Positions 32,062-38,209 of a stretch of 64,000 nucleotides of DNA are shown here, piece after piece. Made by a program: the position numbers and the translations under genes. The DNA is taken from positions 1 through 64,000 of the forward strand of contig CANQTO010000010.1 of NCBI GenBank assembly GCA_947626785.1. Direction: 5' to 3'. Below the pieces are notes generated by a model. It was not told where the DNA came from and did no database searches. It saw nothing but the letters and a program-made list of their open reading frames with translations. Each line of letters begins with the position of its first letter. The first letter of the stretch is position 1. This stretch comes from an uncultured Oscillospiraceae bacterium (GTDB lineage Bacteria; Bacillota; Clostridia; Oscillospirales; Oscillospiraceae).

Positions 32062-33606
32062 TCACGGTCGCTCTTCCGCTTCCATCAGGCGGAGCAGGTC
32101 CTTTACTATGTCCGGACTTACCTTTGCTGCCCGGCATATTTCATCGATGTTATTTTCCCCGCTTGACAGGAGCTCTGTCACCTTCAGTATCTTTTTAAAG
32201 CTTATCTTCGCGTACAGCGGGTCCTCTCTCAACTGCCGGGAAGTGTTGCTGTCAAGCGTCAAAGATCTTACAGGACGGTCATGGCGGCCGGTCCGTTCCT
32301 CACGGACCGGCAAGGCCTGGCCGGCCGGAGCCCTGCGCTCATATTGCCTCAGGTATAGCGTTTGCCCATGCAGGGTCCGGGCCTCTGTGATCACGACGAT
32401 AACGGTCCTGCCCGTCGCGATCGTTTTGGAGCCGAGAACGTCTATCTTTCCGATCGGTGACGCGACAAGCCTTTCCTCGGCAACACGGCTGTTTTCCGTT
32501 AAGCGCATGGAGGCCTCCCACATGTTGTTTGACAGGAGGATCTCAGCCATATTCAGAAGACATCTGCGGTCCTGGACCTTCTTCCAACGGTCCGGGATCC
32601 AGGCGGCGCCGTTTATCATTCCGAGAAGCCCGCCTGTCATGGCGGCGATCGTGTCGGTGTCCGCTCCCACCGAATAAGCGGCCGTTTTGATCCCAAGAGA
32701 GGGATTGTTGGCGTATTTGGACGCAAGATAAATCGCGCACAGAGCCGTCGCATCTCCCGCTCCACGGAAATTTGAATATGCCCCCAGGTCTTCGAGCACG
32801 GCGCTGTCGTTGCTGAGCAGACCCTTTGAAAGGTCCGCGTTTATTCTCAAAAGTCCCGCTACTATATTCCGCGCGGTGGAATCCCATGCCGCCGCGAACG
32901 GATATTCCCTGTTGGCAAGCTCGATCCAGCCCTCCGGAAAACAGCTGCCGCGGAGAGCGCACCATTTGTTTGCCCCGTCGAGCGCTGACTGGACCAATTC
33001 TCCATATTGGAGCGTGCTTTTTTTGTTCAGGGCGATCCAAAGCGTGTACGCGTAACACAACGCGCCAATGATCGCCCGCGGATGTCCGTGTGTAAGGATG
33101 CTGCCGGCAATGACATCTCCGATAAGCTCATCTGCGTCAGGATCCTTCGCGTGGGCAAGTACATGCGGCAGTACCCGCATGGCGGCGCCGTTGCCTCCGG
33201 ACTGAAAATACTCCTTTGAAAAGTGGTCCTTCCAGGGCTCTCTTCCGTTTTTATACGCTTTGGCGGCGTTTTTTGTTGCCTTCCCGCCTCCGCGCTCGTA
33301 TTGAAGCCAATAAGGTAATTCCTTTAAGGAGAAAAAGCTCTGCCAATTACCTGAAATAATACTGCGCGCGACCGCCAGCATCAGTTGAGTGTCGTCGCTG
33401 TATTCTCCGGCCTTGATCTCTTCCGGATGGTTCCAGAATCTGCCGCCCTCCTGCCGTGTCCAATCCACAAATCCGCCTTGGGCCGCGGCTTTGCTCCGCG
33501 CGTTGTGTCTGGATCCTGTTTCGTTTGGCCAGCCCAAAGCGTCGCCGATGGCAAAAGCTACCATCGCGCCCGTACATTTTTCCGCGTTTGACAGTGTGTC
33601 CATCAT
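32062..33606 (-). CDS. DraG-type ADP-ribosylglycohydrolase with C-terminal extension
   Basis: 514 residues from ATG 33606 (AGAAAGGAG upstream; a second ATG follows directly). Residues 8-340 are a complete ADP-ribosylglycohydrolase: AFAIGDALGWPNE, YSDDTQLMLA (metal ligands), GGNGAAMRVLPHVLAH, ILTHGHPRAIIGALCYAY and GADTDTIAAMTGG (second metal site). Enzymes of this family cut ADP-ribose from Arg, Ser or DNA. About 170 further residues form a basic linker and a small helical end (NIDEICRAAKVSPDIVKDLL) that may bind nucleic acid. One base separates it from the DarT-like gene, so it is the likely antitoxin. Confidence 0.9.
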   Translation of the reverse strand: MMDTLSNAEKCTGAMVAFAIGDALGWPNETGSRHNARSKAAAQGGFVDWTRQEGGRFWNHPEEIKAGEYSDDTQLMLAVARSIISGNWQSFFSLKELPYWLQYERGGGKATKNAAKAYKNGREPWKDHFSKEYFQSGGNGAAMRVLPHVLAHAKDPDADELIGDVIAGSILTHGHPRAIIGALCYAYTLWIALNKKSTLQYGELVQSALDGANKWCALRGSCFPEGWIELANREYPFAAAWDSTARNIVAGLLRINADLSKGLLSNDSAVLEDLGAYSNFRGAGDATALCAIYLASKYANNPSLGIKTAAYSVGADTDTIAAMTGGLLGMINGAAWIPDRWKKVQDRRCLLNMAEILLSNNMWEASMRLTENSRVAEERLVASPIGKIDVLGSKTIATGRTVIVVITEARTLHGQTLYLRQYERRAPAGQALPVREERTGRHDRPVRSLTLDSNTSRQLREDPLYAKISFKKILKVTELLSSGENNIDEICRAAKVSPDIVKDLLRLMEAEERP

Positions 33607-33607
33607 G

Positions 33608-34285
33608 TTATGGCTCCTTTCTGACCCTGTACAACGTCTCGGCCGGATACACCCCATTATGGGCGAGGCGGCTCCAGGAGGTACTCAAAAGATCAGGCGA
33701 AATGTAGATCGGTATTTCTCCCACACGATTTACATTCAGCAGCGCGTATAGATGTGCGGCTTTTTCCTCGCTGCTCACCGCGAATCCGGTAAAGAAACGG
33801 ACCGGAATGTTGTCGCTGACCAGTATTTCAGCCTGATCGTCTGTGGGACAGCACGAAAGCAGCGTTTGTTCCCGCTTTCGCGACACGGTCTCATCAGCAT
33901 ATAACTTGCAGATCTCGATCGCGCTGCCGGAGATATGCCTGCCATTGGCGGTCGCGGCGTTACAGGGAGAAAACAGGATCTTCCTCTGATCCAGTATATC
34001 CAGATCGATAAAGATAACGACCCAGTCTGTAAAGATCCTGTCAGTATCGCGATTCTTTACGTCCCTGAGATACCAGGCGTTTGGGTATTGGACCGAACAG
34101 CAAACAAAATCCGGCTTTCCGTCGCTTCGTAAGGGATCGTTTTGCTTTATAATATCGGGGTCTATGTTTTGACTGGCCAAAATTCCGTCGCAGGAAGACA
34201 ATATGTGGACCAGATTTACCAGCTTTGTTAAATGACAAAGCCGCGTCACGCCGCGCGAGACAAGATAATCTTTTATGTACGTCAT
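33608..34285 (-). CDS. DarT-family (DUF4433) DNA ADP-ribosyltransferase
   Basis: 225 residues. N-terminal HLTKLVNLVHILSS and GILASQ match the DarT opening (NAD-binding His and the Nx(L)xxIL turn); SVQYPNAWYLRD and the DWVVIFIDLD strand follow; QAEILVSDNIP near residue 155 gives the catalytic Glu in the position known for DarT. DarT enzymes attach ADP-ribose to thymidine or guanosine in single-stranded DNA. The usual partner is a macrodomain protein (DarG); here the gene is framed by a helicase gene (4-bp ATGA overlap) and a DraG-type hydrolase (1-bp gap). Confidence 0.82.
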   Translation of the reverse strand: MTYIKDYLVSRGVTRLCHLTKLVNLVHILSSCDGILASQNIDPDIIKQNDPLRSDGKPDFVCCSVQYPNAWYLRDVKNRDTDRIFTDWVVIFIDLDILDQRKILFSPCNAATANGRHISGSAIEICKLYADETVSRKREQTLLSCCPTDDQAEILVSDNIPVRFFTGFAVSSEEKAAHLYALLNVNRVGEIPIYISPDLLSTSWSRLAHNGVYPAETLYRVRKEP

Positions 34286-35694
34286 AGTTTATCTCCATCT
34301 ATGTAGGCGCAAGAGGACAAGCCCGACGGAATAATAGGGGACAGTTTTTCATGATAAGACATGAACAGCCCATATTTGGAGCGCGTGGCCGCGACATACA
34401 AGAGCTTCAACTCATTTGCGTATGCCGCGCTTTCCGATTGAGCCTCTGAGACCGTTTCGGGATCCGGGAAAATACCCTCTGAAAGCAGGGGAATGAAAAC
34501 ATTATCATATTCAAGCCCCTTGGCGGAATGGAACGTACTTATATAGATCCCTTTCGCGTTTGCCGTAAAGCGGCTTCCTTTATCGATGGTCGAGCAGCTG
34601 AGGCCCTTCGCGTTGAGGAAAGAGCAGATCTTGTTGGCCGCGCTCCGGTTTCGGCAGATCACGATATTAGAAGCTTCCGGGGCGTGCTCAAGCTGCGCCG
34701 CCAACCACTCCAGCTCTGATTCCTGGTCCGAAAAACTGATCATCACTGGCTTAGGGCCACTGGCCGTAACCGGTGAAGGGGCAATTATGTCGTCGTCCTT
34801 TTCCCAATACTGGGTACTCATCAGATCATGAGCAAACGCGGTGATCGTTGAGGGATTGCGATAATTTTTGTCGAATCTCCAGATATTGCTCACCGTGATC
34901 CCGGCATCCCGCCAGGATAGCCGGCTGCCGTAAATCTGCTGAGCCGTGTCTCCGAAAAAGATAAATGAACCGGTCTTGTCGACCGCGCTCGTCAGGGCTT
35001 TCAGCATCATCGGAGAAAAATCCTGCCCCTCGTCGACAATAATGTGCTTGTACCGCCTTTCACGGCCGTCGGTTTGAAGCGCGCGATAGACATAGCAGGC
35101 CAAATCATCCCAGTCGTATAGGTATCCCTCTCGCTGCCGCAGCTCCAGATAATCCCTATAGATCTTGAAAAACCAGGGCCTGTTTTCCCTCTTGATATAC
35201 GTTTCCTTACGGCCAACACGCTCTATGGAACAGTATACGCTCTCTTCTGTCGCGCCAAATCTCTCCAGAAAGGAGATCTCGTCAACAAACACATTCAATG
35301 GGCGTTTAAATGTCGACTCATTAGGATACTCAGCCCGCGCTTTGTCCAGCGCCTGCTGAACCAGGAGCCTCTTTTTGCTTGGATAAACGATCCCACAAGA
35401 CGGGGGCATTTTCCCAAGGCTGCTCAAGTAGCCGCAGGCAAACTTGTGAAAATGCTCGATGGTAATATTTTGAGGATATTCACCGGCGAGCATTTTCATG
35501 TAGTTCACCAGAGCTCCGTTAAAAGTGACTACAAGGACTTTTGGCTTGTCGGGAAGCTGGGCCAAGAGCTCCGCTCTCAAGAGAGCCATGGTAGTTTTTC
35601 CGCTTCCGGCGGTCCCTAACACTACGTATTGCCCGGTCGGGGGTAACGCGTATACCTCGTTCTGTTTTCCTTTCGGCGTAATATTCTCTAACAT
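34282..35694 (-). CDS. UvrD-like superfamily 1 helicase, compact form
   Basis: 470 residues, shorter than PcrA/UvrD. Motif I GTAGSGKTTMALLRAELL, motif II VDEGQDFSP near residue 222, motif III FFGDTAQQIYG, motif IV NYRNPSTI, motif V STFHSAKGLEYDNVFIP and motif VI LLYVAATRSK are all intact, so it should be an active ATPase and translocase; the 1B/2B subdomains are reduced. First gene of the operon with DarT and DraG homologues. It may feed single-stranded DNA to the ADP-ribosyltransferase or act as the sensor; that is inference. Confidence 0.88.
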   Translation of the reverse strand: MLENITPKGKQNEVYALPPTGQYVVLGTAGSGKTTMALLRAELLAQLPDKPKVLVVTFNGALVNYMKMLAGEYPQNITIEHFHKFACGYLSSLGKMPPSCGIVYPSKKRLLVQQALDKARAEYPNESTFKRPLNVFVDEISFLERFGATEESVYCSIERVGRKETYIKRENRPWFFKIYRDYLELRQREGYLYDWDDLACYVYRALQTDGRERRYKHIIVDEGQDFSPMMLKALTSAVDKTGSFIFFGDTAQQIYGSRLSWRDAGITVSNIWRFDKNYRNPSTITAFAHDLMSTQYWEKDDDIIAPSPVTASGPKPVMISFSDQESELEWLAAQLEHAPEASNIVICRNRSAANKICSFLNAKGLSCSTIDKGSRFTANAKGIYISTFHSAKGLEYDNVFIPLLSEGIFPDPETVSEAQSESAAYANELKLLYVAATRSKYGLFMSYHEKLSPIIPSGLSSCAYIDGDKL

Positions 35695-35835: not shown

Positions 35836-35864
35836 TTGCTTTTTATGAAAAAACCTATTATAAT
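35836..35864 (+). promoter_or_regulatory. Promoter of the tRNA-like RNA
   Basis: TTGCTT (35836-35841), 17-bp spacer, TATAAT (35859-35864). Expected start about 35871, at the base of the RNA closing helix. Confidence 0.8.
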
Positions 35865-35870
35865 AAAAAA

Positions 35871-36000
35871 CAGCATGGCAGCTAGCCAGATTTACTTCTA
35901 CCGCTTGGAGGGGGAGGTTGTGGGTTCGAATCCCACCGGGGCGTAATCGCCCCGTAGCTCAATGGTAGAGCGCCTTTTGAATCTGGCGATCCGCCATTGC
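35871..36000 (+). ncRNA. Circularly permuted tRNA-like RNA (YrlA-like architecture)
   Basis: Order of elements: 5' strand TGGC (35876-35879) and GCCAGATT (35885-35892); T arm GTGGG-TTCGAAT-CCCAC (35920-35936); acceptor stem CGGGGCG/CGCCCCG (35937-35943, 35948-35954) closed by the loop TAAT instead of free ends; TA; D arm GCTC-AATGGTA-GAGC (35957-35971); 3' strand AATCTGGC (35980-35987) and GCCA (35993-35996) pairing with the 5' strand. There is no functional anticodon arm; a helix of the RNA ends takes its place. Bacterial Y RNAs of the YrlA type mimic tRNA in this permuted way. The 3' end is uncertain: T-runs follow at 36044 and 36100. Confidence 0.8.
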
Positions 36001-36095
36001 GATTACTCATAGCTAGTGGGGCTTACTTCTTTCTACTTTCTACCTTTTTTAGTCCCACATTTCATGAGCGCTAACAGCTAGGCGGATTTACTTCT
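35880..36095 (+). repeat. Three 20-nt repeats with variable 6-nt centre
   Basis: AGCTAG-N6-TTACTTCT at 35880-35899 (N6 CCAGAT), 36011-36030 (TGGGGC) and 36076-36095 (GCGGAT). The first is the 5' strand of the tRNA-like RNA. Copies 2 and 3 are each followed by ACCTTTTTTAG. CCAGAT can pair with ATCTGG (35981-35986) and GCGGAT with ATCCGC (35989-35994) of the same RNA. The gap 36001-36163 contains nothing else that is recognised. Confidence 0.75.
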
Positions 36096-36163
36096 AACCT
36101 TTTTTAGGACATATTGTTTTAATTCGTCGATATCGTTAGCGGTTATACCTTTTGGAGGCAGAT

Positions 36164-38209
36164 ATGAAACAGATCTACAAAGAGCAGTTGTTTGAAAAAG
36201 GCTATCTGGTCTCGGAATGCGAACCGGACATCGAAAACACGTTTGAGGTGCTGTTCTCGCTGGCAGCGCTGTTTAACATCAGAATCGTTTCCGGTGAAAA
36301 ATTAGCTCAGAAAGAAATGATCTCTTTTGTTTCCGAGCAACTTGGGATCCGTGTCCCTGAGCCCTTCTACAGAGGTTTTCCTCAGTCTGTTAGAGGGCTT
36401 TCATCTCATGAGCTGCTTTTCGATCAAGTGTACCATTACGCGCAGACTTATGGATTCGGTTTGTTTGAAGGAGCCGGGCACTCTCTTTTTGAAACTTTTT
36501 TAGAAAGGACTGCCTTTAGAGAGAAGGCGAAAGTCAGAGATTATTATATCATTACAGAAGAGGAAGCAAGAGAAAAAATAGCGGACATCACCGGCAATCT
36601 TTTGCTTAGTTCAAGGCCGCTTAATGATGAACAATATGCTCTGGTTCTTGAGTATTTGAAGGATTTCGATTGCGATATAGCAAATTGCGCTTCTAAAAAT
36701 ACGGCCATTCGGCTTTTGGCAGACAGCCGCAACTTGAAACTCCTCCCGTTCATCTCAATGTCAGACGTTATCAAGCTTGTTGATGAGATCAATTATCGCA
36801 GTTATGGGAACGAGAACATCAAGAAGCTTAATCTGCGAAATAAGGATAGAAAATTCATCACGGAAGTGATCGACAGATTGTTTGATGCCCGTAGATGCGA
36901 CATCGAAACATGCAGTGAAAAGAAAGCCGTTTGGAGCGGCCTGCTTCACCATATTCATTATCAGCCGCGTGATGAGTTGGCTGAACGCTTTGCCGCGTGC
37001 ATGCGGGGAAAGGAAAATATCTCTGTCTACTCAAAATTTGAAAAAGCGCTCGCTGAACAGGACATAAAAGGCGCTGTCAAAATCCTTAAGGAAGGCAAAA
37101 GCGCGGCGACCGTCTTGAGAAATCTGGATTATATCGTCAGCCGGTGCTCCTCTCAGGAAGAGGTTGAGTTTGTCATTGAGAGTATAGACAGCCGCAATGT
37201 AATAGTATTGTTGCAGCTCATGTTACAATACGCGAACTATTCGTCAAAGCCGGCAACACGTGATTTTGTTTTCACTGCGCATAATAAGATGAAGGTACAT
37301 CACGAAACCGAAGAGGAAGCAAACAAGCGCAAGTCGATCATCACGGAAGAATACGCGAATGCCATTCTCGCCGGAATAAGCAAAAACCTTCGAAAAGTGC
37401 TGCAAGGCCGTTTGGGAAAGGTTTATATCGATCCGGCTATGCGATCCATAGCTCTTCCTCTTCAAGAGAATACTTCACAGGGCGGCGTTGGAGTTCTTCC
37501 TAAGGGTTCCAGGATCGCTATTGAAAAAGGAAAGAAAATCAGAGCGTTTACTTACTGGGAAAAAGTCAATGATATTGACCTTTCCGTGATCGGTCTCGAT
37601 GACAATGGCCGTCAGACAGAGTTTTCATGGAGAACCATGTTTAGGAACCAGTCCTCTGCAATTGCCTATTCGGGAGATCAAACCAGCGGGTTTAACGGAG
37701 GTTCTGAATACTTTGACATTGATGTTAAGGAGTTCAGAAAACTGCATCCCGAAATAAAGTATTTGATTTTCTGCGATAATGTCTTTTCAGACATGAATTT
37801 CAATAAGTGCTTTTGTAAGGCTGGATTCATGACCAGAGATATCAATGACTCCGGAGAGGTATATGAACCCAAAACGGTCCAATCCTCGTATTTGATCGAT
37901 TGTGAAAGCACATTTGCCTATCTGTTTGGTATTGACCTCGAGAAGAATGAATTTGTCTGGCTGAACATGGCCAGACAAAGCAACGCGAGAGTGGCGGGCG
38001 TCACTTCTCTGGATCATCTAACAAAGTATTTCGATGTCACTTCCATCATAAACATGTATTCGTTCTTTGAAATGATGTCGGCAGAGCTTGTAGACGATCC
38101 CTCCGAGGCAGAGATCATTGTTTCAGATCGTACCGTATATCATAACGAAAACGCGGAAGTGATCAGAAGCTGCGATTTCGATAAGGTGCTGGCGTTGATG
38201 AATCCCTGA
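36164..38209 (+). CDS. TerD-domain fusion protein of unknown function
   Basis: 681 residues from ATG 36164 with GGAGG five bases upstream (the TTG at 36152 is not needed). Residues 1-430 are helical and unrecognised. From about 440 a TerD-like calcium-binding domain is visible: GVLPKGSRIAIEKG, NDIDLSVIGLDDNGR, IAYSGDQTSGFNGGSEYFDI and IKYLIFCDNVFSD. This resembles the large TerD fusions of actinobacteria and myxobacteria (SCO0854/MXAN_6230 group). Base composition is clearly AT-richer than the rest of the window, a sign of transfer. It follows the tRNA-like RNA on the same strand and ends in a strong terminator; it may bind that RNA. Confidence 0.7.
   Translation: MKQIYKEQLFEKGYLVSECEPDIENTFEVLFSLAALFNIRIVSGEKLAQKEMISFVSEQLGIRVPEPFYRGFPQSVRGLSSHELLFDQVYHYAQTYGFGLFEGAGHSLFETFLERTAFREKAKVRDYYIITEEEAREKIADITGNLLLSSRPLNDEQYALVLEYLKDFDCDIANCASKNTAIRLLADSRNLKLLPFISMSDVIKLVDEINYRSYGNENIKKLNLRNKDRKFITEVIDRLFDARRCDIETCSEKKAVWSGLLHHIHYQPRDELAERFAACMRGKENISVYSKFEKALAEQDIKGAVKILKEGKSAATVLRNLDYIVSRCSSQEEVEFVIESIDSRNVIVLLQLMLQYANYSSKPATRDFVFTAHNKMKVHHETEEEANKRKSIITEEYANAILAGISKNLRKVLQGRLGKVYIDPAMRSIALPLQENTSQGGVGVLPKGSRIAIEKGKKIRAFTYWEKVNDIDLSVIGLDDNGRQTEFSWRTMFRNQSSAIAYSGDQTSGFNGGSEYFDIDVKEFRKLHPEIKYLIFCDNVFSDMNFNKCFCKAGFMTRDINDSGEVYEPKTVQSSYLIDCESTFAYLFGIDLEKNEFVWLNMARQSNARVAGVTSLDHLTKYFDVTSIINMYSFFEMMSAELVDDPSEAEIIVSDRTVYHNENAEVIRSCDFDKVLALMNP

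Follow-up and report, generated by a model that had tools for sequence, protein, structure and literature searches.

A Y RNA-type module array adjoins the gene of a TerD-like fusion protein in an uncultured Oscillospiraceae bacterium and at related bacterial and phage loci

Y RNAs are known partners of Ro60, a long-studied autoantigen that carries a vWA domain, and the Y RNAs of Salmonella accumulate as separate RNAs. Among the closest described systems to the one analysed here are Rsr/Ro60-Y RNA ribonucleoproteins, exemplified by Rsr-Y RNA-PNPase of Deinococcus and rsr-yrlBA-rtcBA of Salmonella. The accessible text of one report places the Salmonella Y RNAs in one operon with rsr (PMC7790460). 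Here, we focused on a window of 64,000 nucleotides from an uncultured Oscillospiraceae bacterium (positions 1 to 64,000 of contig CANQTO010000010.1, assembly GCA_947626785.1), in which three tandem Y-type modules precede the gene of a 681-residue protein, and only the first (module 1) has a full tRNA-like head. This system shares the RNA family and the operon-like linkage with the Rsr/Ro60 ribonucleoproteins, and RNA-repair neighbours are likewise found at some loci of the window family. Unlike Rsr/Ro60, the window protein has no detected TROVE domain, and it has a TerD-like C-terminus in place of the Ro60 vWA domain. We consider it likely that the locus encodes a Y-RNA ribonucleoprotein in which this TerD-fusion protein stands in for Ro60.

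A preliminary description of this stretch had reported a single RNA with a permuted tRNA fold. That RNA is module 1, and its T arm, acceptor and D arm lie where they had been placed, but two further modules (36006-36068 and 36069-36141) had been missed. The pairing of the transcript ends had been given as 8 bp plus 4 bp; the 8-bp helix was recovered, whereas the outer helix has 5 bp. A 3-bp stem top lies on the 'anticodon' side (35912-35914/35973-35975, with one G-U pair). The three modules follow a common plan of an outer stem, AGCUA, an 8-bp stem, UACUUC, an apical part and an AUAUC-like 3' loop of 5 or 6 nt. The features below are supported for module 1 by its fold, by its match to the Rfam YrlA model (RF02553), by covariation and by R1, a covariance model built from 18 tRNA-like modules of the protein family's loci.

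35836..35864, + strand: promoter-like site, TTGCTT, 17 nt, TATAAT; its end is 15 nt 5' of the AGCTA of module 1
35875..35997, + strand: module 1, YrlA-type Y RNA with permuted tRNA-like head
35875-35879/35993-35997, + strand: outer 5-bp helix of module 1
35880..35898, + strand: core of module 1, AGCTA, inner stem strand GCCAGATT, TACTTC
35885-35892/35980-35987, + strand: closing 8-bp helix of module 1
35920..35971, + strand: tRNA-like head of module 1 (no CCA)
35920-35936, + strand: T arm of module 1
35937-35954, + strand: acceptor hairpin of module 1, loop TAAT
35957-35971, + strand: D arm of module 1
36006..36068, + strand: module 2, short and Y-like, CTCAT/ATGAG outer stem, AGCTA, GTGGGGCT/AGTCCCAC, TACTTC, ATTTC
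36069..36141, + strand: module 3, short and Y-like, CGCTAAC/GTTAGCG outer stem, AGCTA, GGCGGATT/AATTCGTC, TACTTC, GATATC
36164..38209, + strand: gene of the 681-residue protein, with an N-terminal part, an alpha-solenoid (about residues 122-432) and a TerD-like beta domain (about 440-610)

The module 1 stretch folds with -58.1 kcal/mol (z -3.67), and none of 200 shuffled sequences was equally stable. Module 1 matches the YrlA model over its full length (positions 1-114 of 114, 46.1 bits, E 3e-9 with 461 bases searched), although the score is below the Rfam gathering score of 69. It shares with YrlA the full model order, the permuted tRNA head and the two-part lower stem, and the window array resembles YrlA in having tandem Y-like modules that adjoin a protein gene. 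The runner-up YrlA match in the same genome had 21.6 bits (150 of 240 first-look candidates scored). R1 scored 108.1 bits on module 1, which is itself among the 18 sequences used to build it, 23.1 bits on module 2 (E 0.024) and 42.3 bits on module 3. Neither ARAGORN nor Rfam at its gathering score reports a tRNA at module 1; the Rfam tRNA model reaches just 14.4 bits there, with a broken anticodon arm. We rejected module 1 as a tRNA, as neither program finds an unpermuted cloverleaf with an anticodon arm.

TROVE genes were found in 4 of 291 genomes of the class, three of the four proteins being closely related, and R1 found matches upstream of all four (50.8-62.7 bits). With the Rfam YrlA model these TROVE-adjacent RNAs scored 42.0-50.9 bits, likewise under the gathering score. 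As the YrlA score of module 1 is comparable to those of the Ro-linked RNAs of the same class, the module 1 RNA is of the YrlA kind, and the earlier proposal of a class separate from YrlA is not supported. What sets this locus apart is its protein partner rather than the fold of the RNA. TACTTC is common to the TROVE-linked RNAs and the modules of the window family, whereas the loops differ: three of the four TROVE loci have CAGTGCA and ATTTTC- or CTTTTC-like loops, and the window has AGCTA and AUAUC-like loops.

To collect related loci, contigs were scanned with an alignment of three homologues, which gave 32 loci from Clostridia and similar bacteria, many from rumen or gut. With a motif-plus-stem descriptor, 29 of 31 family loci (counting the window) were found to carry same-strand modules within 750 nt upstream of the gene, and 28 of 30 once a locus found through its RNA (L086) is set aside; as the descriptor was learned from the same loci, this census gauges position rather than discovery. 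The tie to homologues of the 681-residue protein that the preliminary description proposed to check is thus present. Each module-bearing locus has 1 to 4 modules, and the density was 55 modules in 23,301 upstream bases versus 6 in 815,625 bases elsewhere, two of the six being the displaced modules of L051. Census loci had at least 200 nt of upstream sequence; L054 (51 nt) is given but uncounted, and L072 and L073, which encode the N-terminal part only, stand outside the census, their upstream DNA having been read by eye and with R1. Some loci are not independent: L044/L041 and L066/L042 give the same matches, L057/L129 look alike, and L069/L071 are near-identical at this region. The linkage was also found in the reverse direction, in that a YrlA match in genome G110, found by RNA alone, directly precedes a previously unseen homologue (L086). 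At this locus (L086:8796-11189), a calcineurin-like phosphoesterase and then a TIR-domain protein are encoded behind the gene.

In the alignment of the 18 tRNA-like modules, 92.6% of 609 cells are paired and double changes occur in 27 of 34 pairs, compared with at most 44.0% paired and at most 15 double-change pairs in slid controls. This agrees with the earlier view of a maintained structure rather than a tRNA fragment. The short modules, 32 in number, are paired in 91.6% of 416 cells and have double changes in 12 of 13 pairs; this double-change count was equalled by 22 of 500 shuffles, the covariation score by none. The outer stem, inner stem, T arm and acceptor hairpin all covary. The inner stem was demanded by the descriptor that picked most modules and is therefore favoured by that choice of modules; the outer stem was not demanded. 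A structure-only scan without the motif found 27 of 31 upstream stretches but also 221 of 766 control windows, and was not relied on. Five of the 32 short modules have the T-arm motif alone as their head (L045:5820-5897, L047:3929-4014, L048:2439-2524, L050:5909-5984 and L052:5841-5920), and may be intermediate between the short modules and those with full tRNA-like heads.

The protein was found in 4 of 295 genomes of the order sample, once as a 159-base match at a contig end, and in 2 of 291 genomes of the class sample, with the window's own genome counted in both. Among the matches listed for the order sample, R1 exceeded 45 bits only in the window, G349 and G050. The G050 match is a short module ahead of its homologue, and the G349 match, with 46.7 bits, was rejected as a tandem tRNA pair. 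Below 45 bits, tRNA junctions crowd in. Tandem tRNA gene junctions score with both the Rfam YrlA model and R1 (up to 46.7 bits with R1) and are a source of false YrlA calls. Raw genome counts (YrlA matches in 111 of 149 genomes, R1 matches in 207 of 295) were therefore rejected as a test of co-occurrence, 11 of the 13 YrlA loci scanned with ARAGORN being tRNA gene clusters. Two of these 13 loci are free of tRNA: L016, through which a homologue was found, and L017 in G115. The latter (L017/L094, G115:C91:36740-36803) scores 43.3 bits with R1 and 32.3 bits with YrlA and has no tRNA by ARAGORN.

The family extends to mobile elements. Relatives found with tblastn included 24 plasmid and 12 phage records, and a phage query returned 11 phage records; a scan of viral contigs with the window protein gave no match. 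By model or descriptor, modules were found at seven of nine phage relatives (L080, L081, L082, L083, L084, L130 and L131); a weaker R1 match in L131 (891-1020) overlaps an annotated tRNA and was left uncounted. R1 finds RNAs in Rhodococcus phage Weasels2 and in phages RpAliso and RcXuper, and the Weasels2 array, which includes a full tRNA-like module, lies behind the gene. In Ruegeria phage RpAliso, a permuted transfer-messenger RNA (L082:1183-1404; RF04321, 129.5 bits) is located just upstream of the Y-like array. Some phage TROVE loci have such RNAs as well: five matches in tandem precede the TROVE gene of phage CcrPW (E 0.022 for the weakest), and among six phage TROVE loci searched, matches were found in L140, L137 and, weakly, L139. 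The accessible portion of one study describes TROVE and, separately, TerD in jumbo phages (PMC7824862), and that of another describes a putative Rsr (an HHpred match) together with abundant candidate Y RNAs in Listeria phage CKA15 (PMC12282133). Going by its description only, the latter is akin to the window system in that abundant RNAs of the phage lie close to an RNA-binding gene, and differs in that its protein is reported to match Rsr.

The window protein has no Pfam match above cut-off, and RING is not listed either. Residues 287-614 match NCBIfam NF041916 (MXAN_6230/SCO0854 family RING domain-containing protein) with 109.9 bits versus an equivalog cut-off of 600, and judged from its sequence the protein is a relative of this family, not a member. 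It differs from the family in lacking a Pfam-listed RING, and no modules were found at six plasmid relatives. The AlphaFold model (mean predicted local distance difference test score, pLDDT, 80.9; below 50 at residues 64-76 and 91-121) predicts helical repeats followed by a beta-rich domain. Among the viral models of BFVD, its best structural match (TM 0.81) carries the name putative tellurium resistant like protein. Pfam TerD matched 1 of 31 family members, weakly (E 0.0027) and not the window protein, and the label 'TerD-like' for the C-terminus rests on these two matches; two plasmid homologues are annotated as TerD family protein. The solenoid alone is modelled with a mean pLDDT of 88.9, and several of its listed Foldseek matches are Pumilio RNA-binding domains, none of them significant. 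Sequence searches of the PDB gave chance-level matches only. In agreement with the earlier statement that no Ro/TROVE gene is adjacent, PF05731 (TROVE) has no match up to E 10 in the whole window genome (99.17% complete, 98 contigs).

A number of results weigh against a ribonucleoprotein of Y RNA and TerD-fusion protein. As six homologues on plasmids, two in phages and that at L089 show no modules, the pairing of RNA and protein is not universal. The plasmid relatives (Variovorax, Niallia, two Streptomyces, Vibrio and Deinococcus) yielded modules in none of six cases, with L078 searched by R1 only; the phage loci are L085 (R1 only) and L132, and L089 is a distant homologue in G303 covered by the simple scan. 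Among the bacterial family loci, the descriptor detected no upstream module in L053, and the modules of L051 lie 2.6 kb upstream of the gene. Neither eye nor R1 found a module at L072:4201-5067 and L073:1588-2460, which are stand-alone genes of about 290 residues for the N-terminal part only. Conversely, G115 has an RNA-like match, but a homologue of the 681-residue protein was not found there. The protein comparisons add to this list: profile comparison with TROVE gave an hhalign probability of about 1% (40 versus 10 sequences), Foldseek listed no match at E <= 0.001 for the whole model or the solenoid, and Ro60 was absent from the best 50 of 498 and of 539 matches, respectively.

The last comparisons also bear on an alternative that overlaps with a TerD-fusion ribonucleoprotein, namely a strongly diverged Ro60, whose solenoid would be a TROVE domain beyond the reach of profiles and whose C-terminal domain would have been swapped, within an otherwise ordinary Ro/Y ribonucleoprotein. 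The RNA family is the same as at TROVE genes, the order of helical repeats followed by a sensor-like domain is similar, and, when the consensus lines are compared by eye, 'VLRNL' of the family weakly resembles 'MLRNL' of TROVE. However, the hhalign result, the genome without a PF05731 match and the lack of Ro60 or Rsr among those best Foldseek matches, although the PDB has entries for them, make this origin unlikely.

The main rival concerns the position of the modules, which may be cis-acting leader elements, that is, sites in the 5' untranslated region for autoregulation of the protein at the level of transcription or translation, with no free Y RNA. The modules are on the same strand and just ahead of the gene, down to -73 in L067-L069 and L071, and window module 3 ends 12 nt before a Shine-Dalgarno-like GGAGG (36154-36158). 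L060 has a single module (2011-2096), and a T run stands between its outer stem and the gene, as in an intrinsic terminator or attenuator. On the other hand, the Weasels2 array behind the gene and the L051 array 2.6 kb away do not fit a leader, an operator would need neither complete tRNA mimicry nor as many as four copies, and the Salmonella Y RNAs also share an operon with rsr. A leader in place of a Y RNA thus seems quite improbable to us, although both readings could be true at once. An accidental pairing of the T and D halves of neighbouring tRNA genes, as the matches at tandem tRNA junctions might suggest, is practically excluded, since module 1 scores 108.1 bits with R1 (which it helped to build) versus at most 46.7 for such junctions, no tRNA gene is present at the site, the modules are tied to one protein family, and the covariation of the outer and inner stems refutes it.

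The promoter reported earlier ahead of module 1 stands in part: the TATAAT box is perfect, but TTGCTT matches at only 3 of 6 positions, and the site (9 of 12) appears in a looser scan and is unlisted in a strict one. Of 29 first modules (L044 omitted), 18 have a promoter-like site ahead of them, the window's included, versus 5.3% in mononucleotide shuffles, and for 11 of them the distance from the end of the -10 box to AGCTA is 8-15 nt. From this anatomy, a TerD-fusion ribonucleoprotein could work as follows. One transcript, driven by the promoter ahead of module 1, would carry the three Y-like modules and then the protein gene, and the modules would also exist as free RNA. Each module exposes the conserved core of AGCUA, 8-bp stem, UACUUC and AUAUC-like loop, which the protein may bind, probably via its alpha-solenoid. 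The upper part of the module is exchangeable, being a full permuted tRNA head, short loops or a T arm alone. If Rsr-Y RNA-PNPase is taken as the model, the RNA in the complex might tether the protein to, or gate its access to, tRNA-sized or structured RNA, the outcome being repair, decay or decoy of damaged tRNA. The role of the vWA domain of Ro60 would fall to the TerD-like domain, as the sensor of a ligand or partner.

RNA-repair genes occur near some family members. In the flanking DNA covered, rtcB is near 3 of 34 family loci: two copies flank the system of L045, and in L049 and L074 rtcB lies on the upstream side, within 4.4-6 kb. The gene rtcR is three genes away from the Variovorax homologue. 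A tRNA nucleotidyltransferase adjoins the RpAliso gene, and a nucleotidyl transferase is near that of RcXuper. No RtcB gene was found in the window genome. On the minus strand of the window, positions 32062-35694 hold a divergent gene cluster for a UvrD-like helicase, a DarT-like ADP-ribosyltransferase and an ADP-ribosylglycohydrolase that is extended at its C-terminus, resembling a DarT-type toxin with the hydrolase as possible antidote. These neighbours do not recur in the family flanks, where only weak UvrD matches were found, at two loci.

We lean towards the view that Y RNAs do not belong to Ro60 alone, and that a single RNA module of two stems, with a UACUUC-type core and an exchangeable head (often a permuted tRNA), works with two or more protein families that are not related to each other, TROVE and TerD-fusion, both in bacteria and in phages. 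In RNA repair and conflict, it would act as a tether that is portable or as a decoy of tRNA. Among the matches listed from the openly licensed literature, no title or abstract joins Y RNAs with a TerD protein, and prior notice is possible outside that scope. If true, a second protein family on the same RNA module would reveal what the RNA itself contributes, and would provide an independent system in which models of tether, gate and decoy can be tested. It would also suggest what a set of unannotated bacterial and phage TerD-like proteins may do, and connect TerD-like domains with tRNA damage.
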